Source: Chitinophagaceae bacterium
Lineage (GTDB): Bacteria > Bacteroidota > Bacteroidia > Chitinophagales > Chitinophagaceae
Direction of reading: 5' to 3'
DNA length: 64,000 bases
Assembly (NCBI GenBank): GCA_947488765.1
Contig: CANLAE010000004.1
Span: 1 to 64,000 of the forward strand
The notes beneath the pieces are model-generated. The model saw only the letters and a list, made by a program, of their open reading frames with translations, searched no databases and was not told the DNA's origin. Positions 263-6,349 of the stretch are shown here, one piece after another (position 1 is the stretch's first letter; each line of letters begins with the position of its first letter). Made by a program: the position numbers and the translations under genes.

Positions 263-1435
263 ATGTTTACAAATCAGGAAATTAATTTAGATATTTTAAA
301 AAAAAGGGCCTTCAATTTAAGGTGGGCTTCTGTGCCTGAAGGTGTTATTCCCTTAACCGCTGCCGATCCCGATTTTCCCTGCGCTCCTGAAATTGCAGAA
401 GCAATAAATCGTTATACTTCTGATCGTTATTTTTCTTATGCACCTGCCGAAGGGCATTTGTTTTTTAGAGAGGCTGTTGCAAACTTTCACGTTACCAAGC
501 GAAATCTTAATACCAAACCCGATTGTGTAATTGCAGTAGACAGTGCAGCATATGGCATACAAATGGTTTGTAAAGCATTTATCCAAAGTGGAGATGAAGC
601 TATTGTATTCAATCCCGTAGATTTTTTATTTAAATATTGTGTTGAGGCAAACAAAGGAGTTGCTATTCCTTTTCCTGTTCCATTACAGCCGGATGCTGGC
701 ATTGATTTTGAGTTATTAGAAGGGTTAATTACTCATAAAACAAAAATGATTTGTTTGTGTAATCCTTTAAATCCAACCGGAAAAGTATTTACAAAAGCTG
801 AATTGGAACAATTAGGAAATTTAGCTGTAAAACATCAACTGATTATTTTATCAGATGAAATTTGGAGTGATATTGTTTTTGCTCCTAATGTTTATAATAG
901 TATAGCTTCGGTTAATGAGGCAATACAACAGCAAACTATTATTGTAACCGGCTACAGCAAGTCTTATGGTTTAGCGGGGTTAAGAGTAGGTGCAGTAATT
1001 GCTCCCAATGATATTTTGTTTGAAAAATTAATGATTGCATCCGGACATCAATCAACGGTACATGGCTGTAATGTGTTGGCGCAAGTTGCAGTCACTTCTG
1101 CATTAAATGAATGTGAATATTGGCTTCAGAATTTTGTTGCCCATTTAACAAATATGCGTAACATTTGTGTAGAAGGGTTGAATAAAATTAATGGTATTTA
1201 TTGCCCTTCACCTCAAGGGTGTTATTTGGTTTTTCCTGATATTACAGCCACCGGATTTACTGCATCGGAATTGCAGACAATACTGTTAGAAAAAGCCAAA
1301 GTAGCTGTTGTACCTGGTTTGAGCCAATGGTTTGGAGAAAGAGCTGCAGGACACATTCGAATTAGTTTTGCAACTTCAGATGAAATAATACAAGAGAGTT
1401 TATATAGAATAACGAAAGCCATGAGTAACTTATGA
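263..1435 (+). CDS. PLP-dependent aminotransferase / C-S lyase-like enzyme (fold type I)
   Basis: The 390-residue protein has the length and layout of class I/II aminotransferases, with the overall look of the PatB/MalY C-S lyase branch. An N-terminal PLTAADPDFP segment matches the substrate-side loop of that branch. The CNPLNPTGKV and LSDEIWSDIVF motifs are the Asn and Asp elements of the cofactor site. SKSYGLAGLRVGA contains the Lys expected to form the Schiff base, and a C-terminal HIRISFA arginine would bind the carboxylate. The stop overlaps the next start (ATGA at 1432-1435), so it is probably translationally coupled to the FAD monooxygenase-DsbA fusion. Whether it transaminates or cleaves a C-S bond cannot be decided from sequence, and no close functional match is claimed. 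Confidence 0.85.
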   Translation: MFTNQEINLDILKKRAFNLRWASVPEGVIPLTAADPDFPCAPEIAEAINRYTSDRYFSYAPAEGHLFFREAVANFHVTKRNLNTKPDCVIAVDSAAYGIQMVCKAFIQSGDEAIVFNPVDFLFKYCVEANKGVAIPFPVPLQPDAGIDFELLEGLITHKTKMICLCNPLNPTGKVFTKAELEQLGNLAVKHQLIILSDEIWSDIVFAPNVYNSIASVNEAIQQQTIIVTGYSKSYGLAGLRVGAVIAPNDILFEKLMIASGHQSTVHGCNVLAQVAVTSALNECEYWLQNFVAHLTNMRNICVEGLNKINGIYCPSPQGCYLVFPDITATGFTASELQTILLEKAKVAVVPGLSQWFGERAAGHIRISFATSDEIIQESLYRITKAMSNL

Positions 1436-3360
1436 AAGTAGTCATTATTGGTGGTGGTATTGCTGGTATGGCAACTGCAATTTTATTACGTAAAAAGGGT
1501 ATCGATTTTTCTTTGAATGAAAGAGATGAAAGTTTGCCAAAATTTGGCCATGCTTTTCTAATTCATCCAGATGCTATGGAAATATTGGATGTTATTTCGG
1601 AAGTTAATCCTGATATTGAATTGCCCGGGAAAATTATAGATAGAATTGTAATGAAAAGACCTGATAATTCTATAGTACAGATATCAGAACTTGATTCTTG
1701 GATTTGCATTCAACGTTTACGCATTATCGAATTTTTAACTTCTTTTTTAGGAGTGGAACAAATAAAATTTGATAGACAATTTTCTCATTTTATATATGAT
1801 GGAGACAAGGCAATAGCAGCGGTATTTACCAATGGAGAAATTGAATACGGAGATGTTTTTATTGGCGCTGATGGGGCACATTCTTTGGTGCGTAACTCAT
1901 TATTTGGAGAAGTGGAATTCTCAAGGGTTGAAGTAAAAGAAATTGTTGGTGTAGTTGAAAATCCACAACTTATTTCAAAATTTGCCAATACATTTATAAA
2001 GTACATGAGCGATTCAATTGGACTTGCTGTAGGTCTAATTCCTTGTTCTGAAGAAAAAATGGTTTGGTTTATGCAATATGACATCAACCTAGAACAAGGA
2101 AATGTAAAATTGCCGGAAGAATTAAAAAATCATTGTACTAAATTATTGGCCAATTTCCCTGCTGAAGTACAAGAGGTAATTTCTTCCAATGATTTTTCTA
2201 ATAACTATATCTGGAGGTCTACAGACTTTGATTTGCTACCAAGTTTTCACAAAAATAATGTTGTGCTCATTGGTGATGCAGCACATGTGGCAATGCCATT
2301 TACAAGCGCAGGTACAACCAATGCATTACTTGATGCTTATAAAATAACTGAAGTTTTGGGAAGTGGAGAAAAACTTGCAGATGCTTTTGCAGATTATTAC
2401 CAAGTCAGAGCTTCAATTGTAGGAAAACAAATTCAGTTGGGTAGAGAAATAAAATATAATTTTTTACACCAATCATCAGAAGAGGTAAAATTGCCTTTGA
2501 TAGTAAATCAGAAGAACAACGAAGAGGCTGAAATTAAAAAGAAAGTTAAAATTTTATATTTTACAGATCCGGTTTGTTCTACCTCTTGGTTGGTTCAACC
2601 ACAACTTCGAAAATTAGCTTTAGAATATGGCGAATATTTTGAATTGAAATACTATATGGGTGGGTTGTTACCTAATTGGGATGATTATAATCCTTTTGGG
2701 CCAGAGAAGCAAAGTGATGCTGCATCATATTGGCAAGCATTATCAGAAGAACACCAAATGCAAATATCTTCTGATGTTTGGTTAAATTCTCCATTGTCTT
2801 CATCATTTCCGCCTTCAATAGCGCTTAAAGCTGCACAGTTGCAAAATAAAATCAAGGCATATCATTTTCACAGAAGAATAAAAGAGTTATTGTTTGTTGA
2901 AAGTAAAAATATTACAGAAATCAGTTTACTTTTAAATACTGCTGAAGAAGTTGGATTGGATACAAAACAACTATCAGATGATATTGGCGAAATAGCATTT
3001 GTACAGTTTAATGAAGATCTAAATAGGGCATCCGATTTAAACATTTCGGTCCTCCCTACTTTTATTTTATCAAATGATTTGGGTGAAAAAATTAGGTTTG
3101 AAGGGTATCAGGAGTTTGAAACATTGGAAAATGCAATTTTGCAATTAATCCCATACGCAAAAAAGGATTTAAGAAAAAGAGAACCGATAGAGTTATTTAG
3201 ATTTTTTCAAAGTTTAACCACGCATGAGTTTGCTTATTTGATGGGTATAACCCCACTGCAAACCGAAATAATATTAAAAAATCTTTATCAGATTGGGGTT
3301 ATTTATAAGAAAACAAGCAAGGCTGGAATTATCTGGATTTTGAATCAAGGGATGTTATAA
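1432..3360 (+). CDS. FAD-dependent monooxygenase fused to a DsbA-like thioredoxin domain
   Basis: This 642-residue protein is a two-part fusion. Residues 1 to about 365 form a group A flavoprotein monooxygenase: the N-terminal GGGIAGMATAILL dinucleotide fold, the GADGAHSLVR motif, and the GDAAHVAMPFTSAGTTNA motif that contacts FAD. Residues about 370-585 resemble the DsbA/FrnE/SpxH branch of thioredoxin-fold proteins, beginning KILYFTDPVCSTSW and containing the cis-Pro region NISVLPTFILS. The active-site Cys is residue 382, but the second Cys of a CxxC motif is Ser385, so dithiol chemistry is unlikely. The last 50 residues look like a small winged helix. Both halves appear intact and no frameshift is needed. 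It overlaps the PLP enzyme by 4 bases. Substrate unknown. Confidence 0.85.
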   Translation: MKVVIIGGGIAGMATAILLRKKGIDFSLNERDESLPKFGHAFLIHPDAMEILDVISEVNPDIELPGKIIDRIVMKRPDNSIVQISELDSWICIQRLRIIEFLTSFLGVEQIKFDRQFSHFIYDGDKAIAAVFTNGEIEYGDVFIGADGAHSLVRNSLFGEVEFSRVEVKEIVGVVENPQLISKFANTFIKYMSDSIGLAVGLIPCSEEKMVWFMQYDINLEQGNVKLPEELKNHCTKLLANFPAEVQEVISSNDFSNNYIWRSTDFDLLPSFHKNNVVLIGDAAHVAMPFTSAGTTNALLDAYKITEVLGSGEKLADAFADYYQVRASIVGKQIQLGREIKYNFLHQSSEEVKLPLIVNQKNNEEAEIKKKVKILYFTDPVCSTSWLVQPQLRKLALEYGEYFELKYYMGGLLPNWDDYNPFGPEKQSDAASYWQALSEEHQMQISSDVWLNSPLSSSFPPSIALKAAQLQNKIKAYHFHRRIKELLFVESKNITEISLLLNTAEEVGLDTKQLSDDIGEIAFVQFNEDLNRASDLNISVLPTFILSNDLGEKIRFEGYQEFETLENAILQLIPYAKKDLRKREPIELFRFFQSLTTHEFAYLMGITPLQTEIILKNLYQIGVIYKKTSKAGIIWILNQGML

Positions 3361-4631: not shown

Positions 4632-5333
4632 ATGAAATCAGGTATTGCAGTTTTTGTTGTTTTTTTTTCAATGAATACCTGTGTGCTTTTTGCACAAACA
4701 ACTTCAAATACAACATTAAATTTTAATCCAAAATTTGGTAATGCTGATTTACAATTAAATGATGCTGTTTACACTACAAAAATCAATGACAGCATTTGGA
4801 TAGATGTTTTTAAATGCTATGTTTCAAATATTGCATTATTACAAAATGGAAAAGTAGTCTGGCAGAAAAAAAATAGTTTTCATCTTATTAATATAGCTAA
4901 TCAACAATCATTGCAGTTGATGCTTCAAACACCTGCTGCACTTGCATTTGATGCAATCCAGTTAAATGTAGGAATAGATAGTACGACAAATGTTGCTGGG
5001 GCAATGGGTGGAGATCTAGATCCTACAAATGGAATGTACTGGACCTGGCAAAGTGGTTACATCAATATTAAATTAGAAGGCAGAAGCAATAAATGCTTAA
5101 CACGAAACAATGCTTTTACTTTTCATTTGGGAGGTTACCAGTTTCCGTACAATGCTTTGCAGAAAATTACCATTCCTATTCAGCAAATAAAAAAAATAAA
5201 CCTTGTAATTGATATTCAAAAATTTATCTCATCAATTGATTTAACCACACAAAATCAAATCATGTCTCCTGGGAAATCTGCGATGTTTCTTTCCAATCAA
5301 TTTTCCACAATTTTTTCTGAATTAAAACAATGA
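4632..5333 (+). CDS. MbnP-like secreted copper-associated protein
   Basis: The 233-residue protein has a signal peptide ending near VLFAQ and matches the MbnP-like family: a beta-rich body with the signature GDLDPTNGMYWTWQSGYIN (about 127-145) and the later FHLGGYQ segment. In methanotrophs MbnP is a periplasmic protein in which a tryptophan is oxidised to kynurenine by the di-haem enzyme MbnH, giving a copper site. The candidate tryptophans here are W137 and W139. The next gene is an MbnH-type enzyme that overlaps by ATGA, which strongly supports the assignment. No methanobactin biosynthesis genes are present. Copper binding here is inferred from the family. Confidence 0.8.
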   Translation: MKSGIAVFVVFFSMNTCVLFAQTTSNTTLNFNPKFGNADLQLNDAVYTTKINDSIWIDVFKCYVSNIALLQNGKVVWQKKNSFHLINIANQQSLQLMLQTPAALAFDAIQLNVGIDSTTNVAGAMGGDLDPTNGMYWTWQSGYINIKLEGRSNKCLTRNNAFTFHLGGYQFPYNALQKITIPIQQIKKINLVIDIQKFISSIDLTTQNQIMSPGKSAMFLSNQFSTIFSELKQ

Positions 5334-6349
5334 AAAAAGTAAGTATTGTTTTTTCGTTACTAATTTTTGTATTGACTGCTTTTGTATCAGTATCGCAACT
5401 ATTTGTTGTGCCAAAAGGATGGCCCAAACAGGGTTATGATTTTTCTAGAAATCCATTATCTAATGAAAAGATTGCATTAGGAAGAGCATTGTTTTATGAT
5501 CCAGTACTTTCAAAAAATAACACTATTTCATGCGCAAGTTGTCACAATCCTTATAATGCATTTGCACATGCAGACCACCAATTGAGCCATGGCATTGAAG
5601 ATAAAATTGGTAAACGTAATGCACCTGCTTTGGTAAACTTAGCTTGGCAAAAAAAGTTTATGTGGGATGGAGCAATCAATCATCTTGATATGCAATCGCT
5701 TTTTCCAATTACGCATCCTGATGAAATGGGCGAACAATTAGATCAGGTAATTTCTAAACTCAAAGGCGCAACTATTTATCCAAAATTATTTTATAAAGCT
5801 TATCAAGACAGCGTTATTACAGGCGAGCATCTATTAAAAGCAATTGCTCAATTCATGCTTACATTGGTGAGTTCAAATTCGAAATACGATAGTGTAATGC
5901 GGCATCAAGCTGTATTTTCAAACCAGGAAAAAAATGGTTATCAATTATTCAAAAAAAATTGCAATTCTTGTCATACAGAACCTTTATTTACAAATCATGA
6001 ATTTGAAAATAATGGATTGCCAATTAATAAAATATTGAAAGATTTTGGCAGAATGAAAGTAACTGGTTTAGTTACTGATTCTCTAAAATTTAAAGTGCCT
6101 ACTTTACGAAATATTCAATATTCATCACCCTATATGCACGATGGGAGATTTGCAAGATTGCAAGATGTTTTAAAACATTATACATTAAGCATTCAAAAGA
6201 GTGCAACACTTTCTCAGAAGCTTCAACAACCAATTGTTTTGACATCCAATGAAAGAGTGGATATTATTGCTTTTTTACTGACTCTAACAGATAATTCATT
6301 TATATCCAACCCCAACTTCAACTATCCTAAATATAACTTATATCCATAG
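5330..6349 (+). CDS. MbnH-like di-haem cytochrome c peroxidase family protein
   Basis: The protein has 339 residues, a signal peptide or N-terminal anchor, and two haem c motifs, CASCH (68-72) and CNSCH (211-215), as in the CcpA/MauG/MbnH family. Other family landmarks are the GKRNAPALVNLAW and FMWDGAINHLDMQ segments and the VPTLRNIQYSSPYMHDGRF stretch near the second haem. It should act in the periplasm. MbnH is known to modify a Trp of MbnP, and the 4-base overlap with the upstream mbnP-like gene makes that partner the obvious substrate. A general peroxidase role cannot be excluded. Confidence 0.88.
   Translation: MKKVSIVFSLLIFVLTAFVSVSQLFVVPKGWPKQGYDFSRNPLSNEKIALGRALFYDPVLSKNNTISCASCHNPYNAFAHADHQLSHGIEDKIGKRNAPALVNLAWQKKFMWDGAINHLDMQSLFPITHPDEMGEQLDQVISKLKGATIYPKLFYKAYQDSVITGEHLLKAIAQFMLTLVSSNSKYDSVMRHQAVFSNQEKNGYQLFKKNCNSCHTEPLFTNHEFENNGLPINKILKDFGRMKVTGLVTDSLKFKVPTLRNIQYSSPYMHDGRFARLQDVLKHYTLSIQKSATLSQKLQQPIVLTSNERVDIIAFLLTLTDNSFISNPNFNYPKYNLYP

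Follow-up and report, generated by a model that had tools for sequence, protein, structure and literature searches.

A 64,000-nucleotide stretch of a Chitinophagaceae bacterium genome (contig CANLAE010000004.1, positions 1 to 64,000; here called the window) encodes a flavin adenine dinucleotide (FAD) monooxygenase (FMO) that continues, in the same chain, into what is by alignment one whole YjbH/SpxH-type protein, end to end. Its gene overlaps the gene of a pyridoxal 5'-phosphate (PLP) enzyme. Fusions of the order FMO-SpxH and of the reversed order SpxH-FMO both occur in Bacteroidota, and the simplest reading of their phylogenies is two fusion events between SpxH and this FMO, one at either end. 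If the two orders did arise separately, that would be strong evidence that SpxH and the FMO work together. The reading put forward here, tentatively and at rather less than even likelihood, is that the two genes form an enzyme module of Bacteroidota in which the SpxH half is carried in cis as a thiol handler or thiol holder.

The complete FMO-SpxH protein is present in 21 different genomes, that of the window (G000) included. The initial annotation had recognized a monooxygenase-thioredoxin fusion in the window and had named confinement to one assembly as an observation that would speak against it. The fusion is real. The open reading frame (ORF) is intact, Pfam recognizes both domains, and the complete protein is encoded in 20 further genomes. 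Another genome of the window's genus (G005) contains a copy that is 94% identical. All searched genomes lie within the phylum Bacteroidota, and the samples overlap and are draws, so the counts are not prevalences. With the window's genome in each sample, the fusion was found in 4 of 99 relatives (G000, G005, G028 and G084), 9 of 396 genomes of the order, 11 of 395 of the class and 2 of 395 of the phylum. The reversed SpxH-FMO form is present in three genomes (G074, G391 and G981); G112 probably carries a fourth, cut by a contig end. A further FMO-SpxH in G115 is also cut by a contig end. The E-value limits were 1e-45 in the phylum sample and 1e-50 in the class sample. Because the reversed forms score about 1e-51 to 1e-69, these limits may hide some of them. 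A candidate fusion fragment in G165 was rejected, as it turned out to be a stand-alone SpxH. In a plasmid collection no record covers 80% of the fusion protein. A Spirosoma plasmid encodes a stand-alone relative under the annotation 'ClpXP adapter SpxH family protein'. The literature search, which had most subscription journals outside its coverage, returned no paper on an FMO-SpxH fusion.

Pfam places FAD_binding_3 at residues 2-312 of the fusion and Thioredoxin_5 at residues 376-566, both above their cut-offs. The initial annotation described the second part as a DsbA-like domain with a winged-helix-like end. By alignment, the two together correspond to a single protein of the YjbH/SpxH type. 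Residues 369-635 align with residues 24-290 of the 298-residue YjbH/SpxH protein GK0824 of Geobacillus (6ghb chain B; E 1.2e-33), and a profile from eight relatives aligns with chain residues 23-292 (E 3.9e-60). By sequence, the two proteins share the thioredoxin domain, the helical insert and the winged helix over the whole length. Unlike the 6ghb protein, the window protein is fused to an FMO, has the motif CSTS and comes from a genome with no Spx/ArsC match. Among the NCBIfam models, none for SpxH gave a match to the SpxH half of the window protein. An AlphaFold2 model of the fusion, built from two sequences (the window's and L002), has a predicted local distance difference test score (pLDDT) of 31.5 and a predicted template modelling score (pTM) of 0.21, which makes it unusable. 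Passages of one paper describe a C-terminal winged helix in YjbH-Gk and the conservation of YjbH among Firmicutes (PMC7253607).

In the FMO tree, the reversed fusions cluster with four unfused FMOs (support 100/99), away from the FMO-SpxH clade. A constraint that places all fused FMOs in one clade is rejected by the approximately unbiased (AU) test with 23 rows (p 7.5e-5). The same constraint is rejected with 36 rows when two secondary losses are allowed into the clade (p 2.4e-4), and when L087 is allowed in as well (p 0.018), the clades tested here and in the PLP tree below having been named after a first tree had been seen. A first 36-row figure of p 1.4e-6 was set aside, since it was inflated by two unfused rows that are secondary losses. 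The corresponding constraint on the PLP enzyme tree is also rejected (p 7.4e-4; 33 rows, all three unfused rows allowed in). In the SpxH tree, the 22 FMO-SpxH, 3 SpxH-FMO and 20 stand-alone sequences each fall on one side of a branch, and the branches are long; this tree favours neither a single SpxH ancestor of the two fusion types nor separate ones. Generic FMOs and G112 were left out of the careful trees, and G115 was used for SpxH only. A less simple but possible origin is a single fusion that was later rearranged and was lost several times.

The PLP enzyme gene is the constant neighbour of this FMO subfamily. It adjoins the fusion gene in 19 of 21 genomes, the reversed fusion in 3 of 3 and the unfused FMOs of the subfamily in 12 of 12, so the linkage that the initial annotation had asked about does extend beyond the window. 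Among the 12 unfused loci, the gap is about 0.4 kb in G1077, and a contig end truncates the PLP gene in G976. As a control, the PLP gene was found near none of 13 generic FMO loci (tblastn, E at most 1e-5, up to 1.5 kb on each side). These control loci come from the sample of 99 relatives, not from the many generic matches of the order sample. In the two exceptions, G212 and G312, the fusion has no PLP neighbour and the PLP gene lies beside a second, unfused FMO elsewhere. In these two genomes (G212 C4 and G312 C97/C441), the unfused FMO adjoins the only PLP gene copy found at E at most 1e-70. At the same limit, there is one copy per genome in all 12 genomes examined. As the PLP gene accompanies unfused as well as fused FMOs, the FMO and the PLP enzyme form the conserved core and SpxH is an added partner. 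The clades differ in gene order: PLP comes before FMO-SpxH in one, and after FMO or after SpxH-FMO in the others. Whichever the order of fusion, SpxH is attached to the FMO at the end distal to the PLP gene. Fusions of opposite order that lie apart in the trees and share the same third gene are strong genomic evidence of a YjbH/SpxH-type protein and a flavin monooxygenase acting together.

The FMO half is probably a working enzyme, as its motifs are intact in every row. G7/G9/G12, D147-G148 and G281-D282, which we take to be the GxGxxG, DG and GD motifs of group A FAD monooxygenases, are unchanged in 23 of 23 FMO rows; the residue counts for FMO and PLP rows predate the class sample, whose 13 FMO rows are left out. 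Its solved relatives in the PDB are two-domain group A hydroxylases, namely 6-hydroxynicotinate 3-monooxygenase, the tetracycline destructases Tet(50/51/56) and the flavoprotein monooxygenase 3rp8, presumably HpxO, and the alignments cover most of the FMO half. By name and chemistry, we take these to be hydroxylases of aromatic or heteroaromatic rings. Such kinship suggests an electron-rich aromatic or heteroaromatic substrate. The scores of the FMO half lie far under the curated cut-offs for the 25 models listed of 102.

In the PLP enzyme, K233, D198, W201, R366 and a PVDFLF stretch are invariant in 21 of 21 rows. K233 is presumably the cofactor lysine and R366 the carboxylate-binding arginine. 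The initial annotation had noted that this protein looks like a C-S lyase, and a route follows from that view in which a thiol adduct of bacillithiol or cysteine would be oxygenated by the FMO and cleaved by the PLP enzyme. The chance of such a route appears slim. The PatB C-S lyase model is indeed among the three best NCBIfam models (220.2 bits), but an aminotransferase model (224 bits) and the GntC model (220.7 bits) score equally, within 5 bits, and all fall far below cut-off, so the models single out no one reaction. For example, the scores amount to 65% of the 340-bit cut-off of PatB (TIGR04350) and 53% of the 415-bit cut-off of GntC (NF041364). The alignments with these two models span about 355-362 residues. 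MalY/PatB C-S lyases and GntC cyclodehydratase align under their cut-offs, and Trp201 and PVDFLF are invariants of the PLP enzyme's own. A cysteine-S-conjugate beta-lyase (9k71, E 1.2e-41) is the fifth PDB match, behind an aromatic aminotransferase as the best solved structure (E 3.2e-45). The PLP enzyme shares by alignment a DEI-SDI stretch with 4dgt, which we take to resemble that of MalY/PatB. At position 201 it has Trp, where the 4dgt alignment has His and 1dju has Tyr. The ring-hydroxylase kin of the FMO likewise speak against oxygenation of a thiol adduct. BshA and BshC, for bacillithiol synthesis, are both found in the window's genome, and BshA is above cut-off in 12 of 13 carriers (the exception is G391). 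This count comes without a non-carrier baseline and so supports only a possibility.

The first cysteine of the SpxH active site (Cys382) is kept in 46 of 46 SpxH rows, including 26 of 26 fused rows. The second cysteine of the CxxC motif is present in 18 of 22 FMO-SpxH, 4 of 4 SpxH-FMO and 20 of 20 stand-alone rows, so that CxxC is retained in 22 of 26 fused rows overall. Serine replaces it in four rows only: the window and G005 (CSTS) and, separately from these, G893 and G1120 (CSAS). The nearest relatives beyond the window's genus, G1009 and G1135, have CSTC, a motif also found in stand-alone SpxH genes of G335, G374, G220 and G324. Thr384 is common to 19 of 22 FMO-SpxH and 4 of 4 SpxH-FMO rows. 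The window protein contains P542-T543, likely the cis-Pro loop. The one-cysteine active site described in the initial annotation is correct for the window, where Ser385 departs from the two cysteines of DsbA-type proteins and from the CxxC of YjbH/SpxH. Most relatives (the same 18 of 22 FMO-SpxH rows) have both cysteines, and the one-cysteine inference therefore cannot be a general mechanism.

The SpxH domain of the window is not decaying despite the lost cysteine. Between G000 and G005, the ratio of nonsynonymous to synonymous substitution rates (dN/dS) is 0.074 for the FMO, 0.068 for SpxH and 0.093 for the PLP gene. Within SpxH, it is 0.065 for the thioredoxin domain and 0.077 for the winged-helix domain. 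The linker (codons 356-370) has a dN/dS of 0.34, against about 0.07 on each side, over 15 codons only. Both halves of the fusion are thus under purifying selection in the window lineage. The CSTS form, still under selection, shows that this lineage can do without a full dithiol cycle.

HbpA, PHHY, RdmE and GrhO5 likewise combine an FAD monooxygenase and, behind it, a thioredoxin-fold domain in a single chain. According to parts of two papers, HbpA has a C-terminal thioredoxin-fold domain and is compared with PHHY, RebC and RdmE (PMC4515095), and domain III of GrhO5 lacks catalytic cysteines, as in many group A enzymes (PMC9299503). By analogy with the Cys-less thioredoxin-like domain III of phenol hydroxylase-type group A monooxygenases, the SpxH half could be a structural or dimerization module. 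The same passages describe a C-terminal thioredoxin-like domain as frequent in group A flavoprotein monooxygenases and propose a role in stability or protein contacts (PMC9299503, PMC4515095), and the second cysteine is gone in four fused rows. This explanation is improbable, as the domain belongs to another family. The Pfam matches are Thioredoxin_5 and DSBA, the phenol-hydroxylase C-terminal domain is not among them, and no monooxygenase is named among the 60 listed of 78 PDB matches of the SpxH profile. Unlike the domain of HbpA, PHHY, RdmE and GrhO5, that of the window type is followed by a winged helix, mostly retains CxxC and is also found at the N-terminus. Cys382 is kept in every fused row, and 12 unfused FMOs have no SpxH in the chain.

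The known role of YjbH in Firmicutes is that of a protease adaptor, with Spx as its client. In the window's genome, no match to the Spx/ArsC family (PF03960) was found, and the B. subtilis control was positive. An Spx adaptor role was rejected for this genome on that ground, which is not true of all carriers. An ArsC-family match (Spx or arsenate reductase) is present in 7 of 15 carriers and absent from 8, one of them only 84% complete. A wider docking role is the main rival of the thiol-handling or thiol-holding role, which we favour. The SpxH half would be a protein-binding surface, as in Firmicutes YjbH, that brings the FMO to a client or steers ClpXP turnover of the FMO, the PLP enzyme or a client; redox state would alter binding, and thiol chemistry would be unnecessary. 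This is unlikely overall, although the YjbH architecture is matched end to end, ClpX is found in the window's genome and the CSTS domain is still constrained. The known client is missing from the window's genome and from the eight carriers above, and CxxC is nonetheless kept in most fused rows. The literature on the YjbH cysteines is itself divided across species. In the passages of PMC7253607 concerned, YjbH binds many proteins, CxxC is required for several functions and contacts in Listeria, and it is dispensable for Spx degradation in B. subtilis and S. aureus. CxxC is not strictly defining for YjbH in that account either, since S. aureus YjbH has SxxC (PMC7253607).

In the favoured thiol-handling or thiol-holding role, the FMO half would bind FAD and NAD(P)H and oxygenate a small molecule. 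The PLP enzyme would have the amino-acid part of this compound as its target, in a step that precedes or follows that of the FMO. The SpxH half, via Cys382 and its protein-binding thioredoxin surface, may hold or reduce the thiol partner of the reaction, which could be a bacillithiol-type small thiol, a substrate disulfide or a protein. Carrying SpxH in cis would keep the step and its thiol partner together. In the window lineage, where only the nucleophilic cysteine is left, this would amount to binding or a mixed disulfide, with no full thiol-disulfide cycle.

In three genomes, the fused SpxH is degenerate or a remnant. In G893 and G1120, the fused SpxH has CSAS and the otherwise invariant MGGLL stretch is changed. 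The locus of G906 is a near copy of these two (blastn blocks of 84 to 96% identity), and its SpxH part is a broken remnant behind a stop of the FMO. Immediately next to the FMO, each of the three genomes encodes an intact stand-alone SpxH with CSSC, in the opposite orientation, an arrangement that looks like a supply of the function in trans. G893 and G1120 share a block of about 4.9 kb at 93% identity, with no further match in the flanking sequence compared, and the block is largely common to G906. Because the shared block ends in unmatched flanks and the genomes represent three families by their assigned codes, recent horizontal transfer of the whole set is suggested. The block (L140 3267-8133, L141 3569-8435 and L142 2307-6694) encodes a lipoprotein-like 197-residue CxxCH protein, the stand-alone SpxH, the FMO-SpxH and the PLP enzyme. 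The contig edge of G906 (L142 1-353) carries another, truncated copy of the first part of the PLP gene, which over its 353 bases is 98% identical to the G1120 locus; a duplication or an assembly end is possible.

A broader proposal can be built on these loci, and it is on balance doubtful. Bacteroidota YjbH/SpxH-type proteins would be dedicated partners of an FMO-PLP pathway rather than Spx adaptors, twice fused at opposite ends. Through Cys382 the flavin enzyme would be presented with a thiol partner; where the fused copy has decayed, an intact stand-alone SpxH next to the module could take over. If true, YjbH-type proteins would have a metabolic role outside regulated proteolysis. The association of SpxH with an oxygenase and a PLP enzyme in genomes without Spx makes such a second, metabolic job testable. 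The module marks an uncharacterized three-part pathway across many Bacteroidota families.

Several observations weigh against the favoured thiol-handling or thiol-holding role. The window's genome (CSTS) contains no stand-alone SpxH at E at most 1e-3, the single match being the fusion itself, so the take-over idea leaves the lost cysteine there unexplained. Within 9.5 to 15 kb of ten unfused FMO and PLP loci, no SpxH is detectable (tblastn, best E 0.067). The solved relatives of the FMO are by name ring hydroxylases, not thiol oxygenases. The redox step may be dispensable, since CxxC is dispensable for Spx degradation in the cited passages (PMC7253607) and four fused proteins lack it. Replacement of SpxH in trans would also meet a compartment problem, given the lipoprotein-like N-termini of many stand-alone forms. 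The post hoc naming of the tested clades is a further point of this kind.

By eye, many but not all of the stand-alone SpxH ORFs in L039-L044, L082, L091, L092, L105 and L107 begin with a lipoprotein-like signal. The N-terminal stretch of these ORFs resembles NPLLCDPxxGxCExP, with a second Cys pair. The stand-alone family may exist as exported and cytosolic forms.

Table 1. Features of the PLP enzyme and FMO-SpxH genes in the window
Feature	Coordinates	Strand	Remarks
PLP enzyme (Aminotran_1_2)	263..1435	+	390 residues; dedicated partner of the fusion; shares four bases (ATGA) with the fusion ORF
FMO-SpxH fusion protein	1432..3360	+	642 residues; internal stops = 0
Group A (two-domain) FAD monooxygenase part, residues 1-355	1432..2496	+	PF01494, E 4e-22
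Linker, residues 356-369	2497..2538	+	Fast evolving
SpxH thioredoxin domain with helical insert, residues 370-570	2539..3141	+	PF13743, E 7.7e-40; 6ghb alignment
Active-site motif CSTS	2575..2586	+	Cys382 = 2575-2577; Ser385 = 2584-2586
C-terminal winged-helix domain of SpxH, residues 571-642, boundary approximate	3142..3357	+	C-terminal part of 6ghb chain B aligned

A larger conserved operon was rejected, as no Pfam family recurs among the 20 neighbouring proteins scanned (10 beside fused loci; 10 beside unfused FMOs and one reversed fusion). PADLOC anti-phage models matched neither the fusion nor the PLP enzyme (0 families at E at most 1e-3). Of the alcohol dehydrogenase gene that follows the window fusion, G005 has only a 117-residue piece, and searches of the other loci with it gave no match. 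A partial exception to the lack of recurring neighbours is a MauG-type peroxidase, which lies near the G142 module (620 residues) and three genes past the window fusion (339 residues). The second and third genes after the window fusion (4632-6349) encode an MbnP-family protein (PF20243, E 1.7e-43) and the MauG-like di-haem peroxidase, with a 4-base overlap. Together they make an MbnP/MbnH-type pair, with a presumed role in copper.

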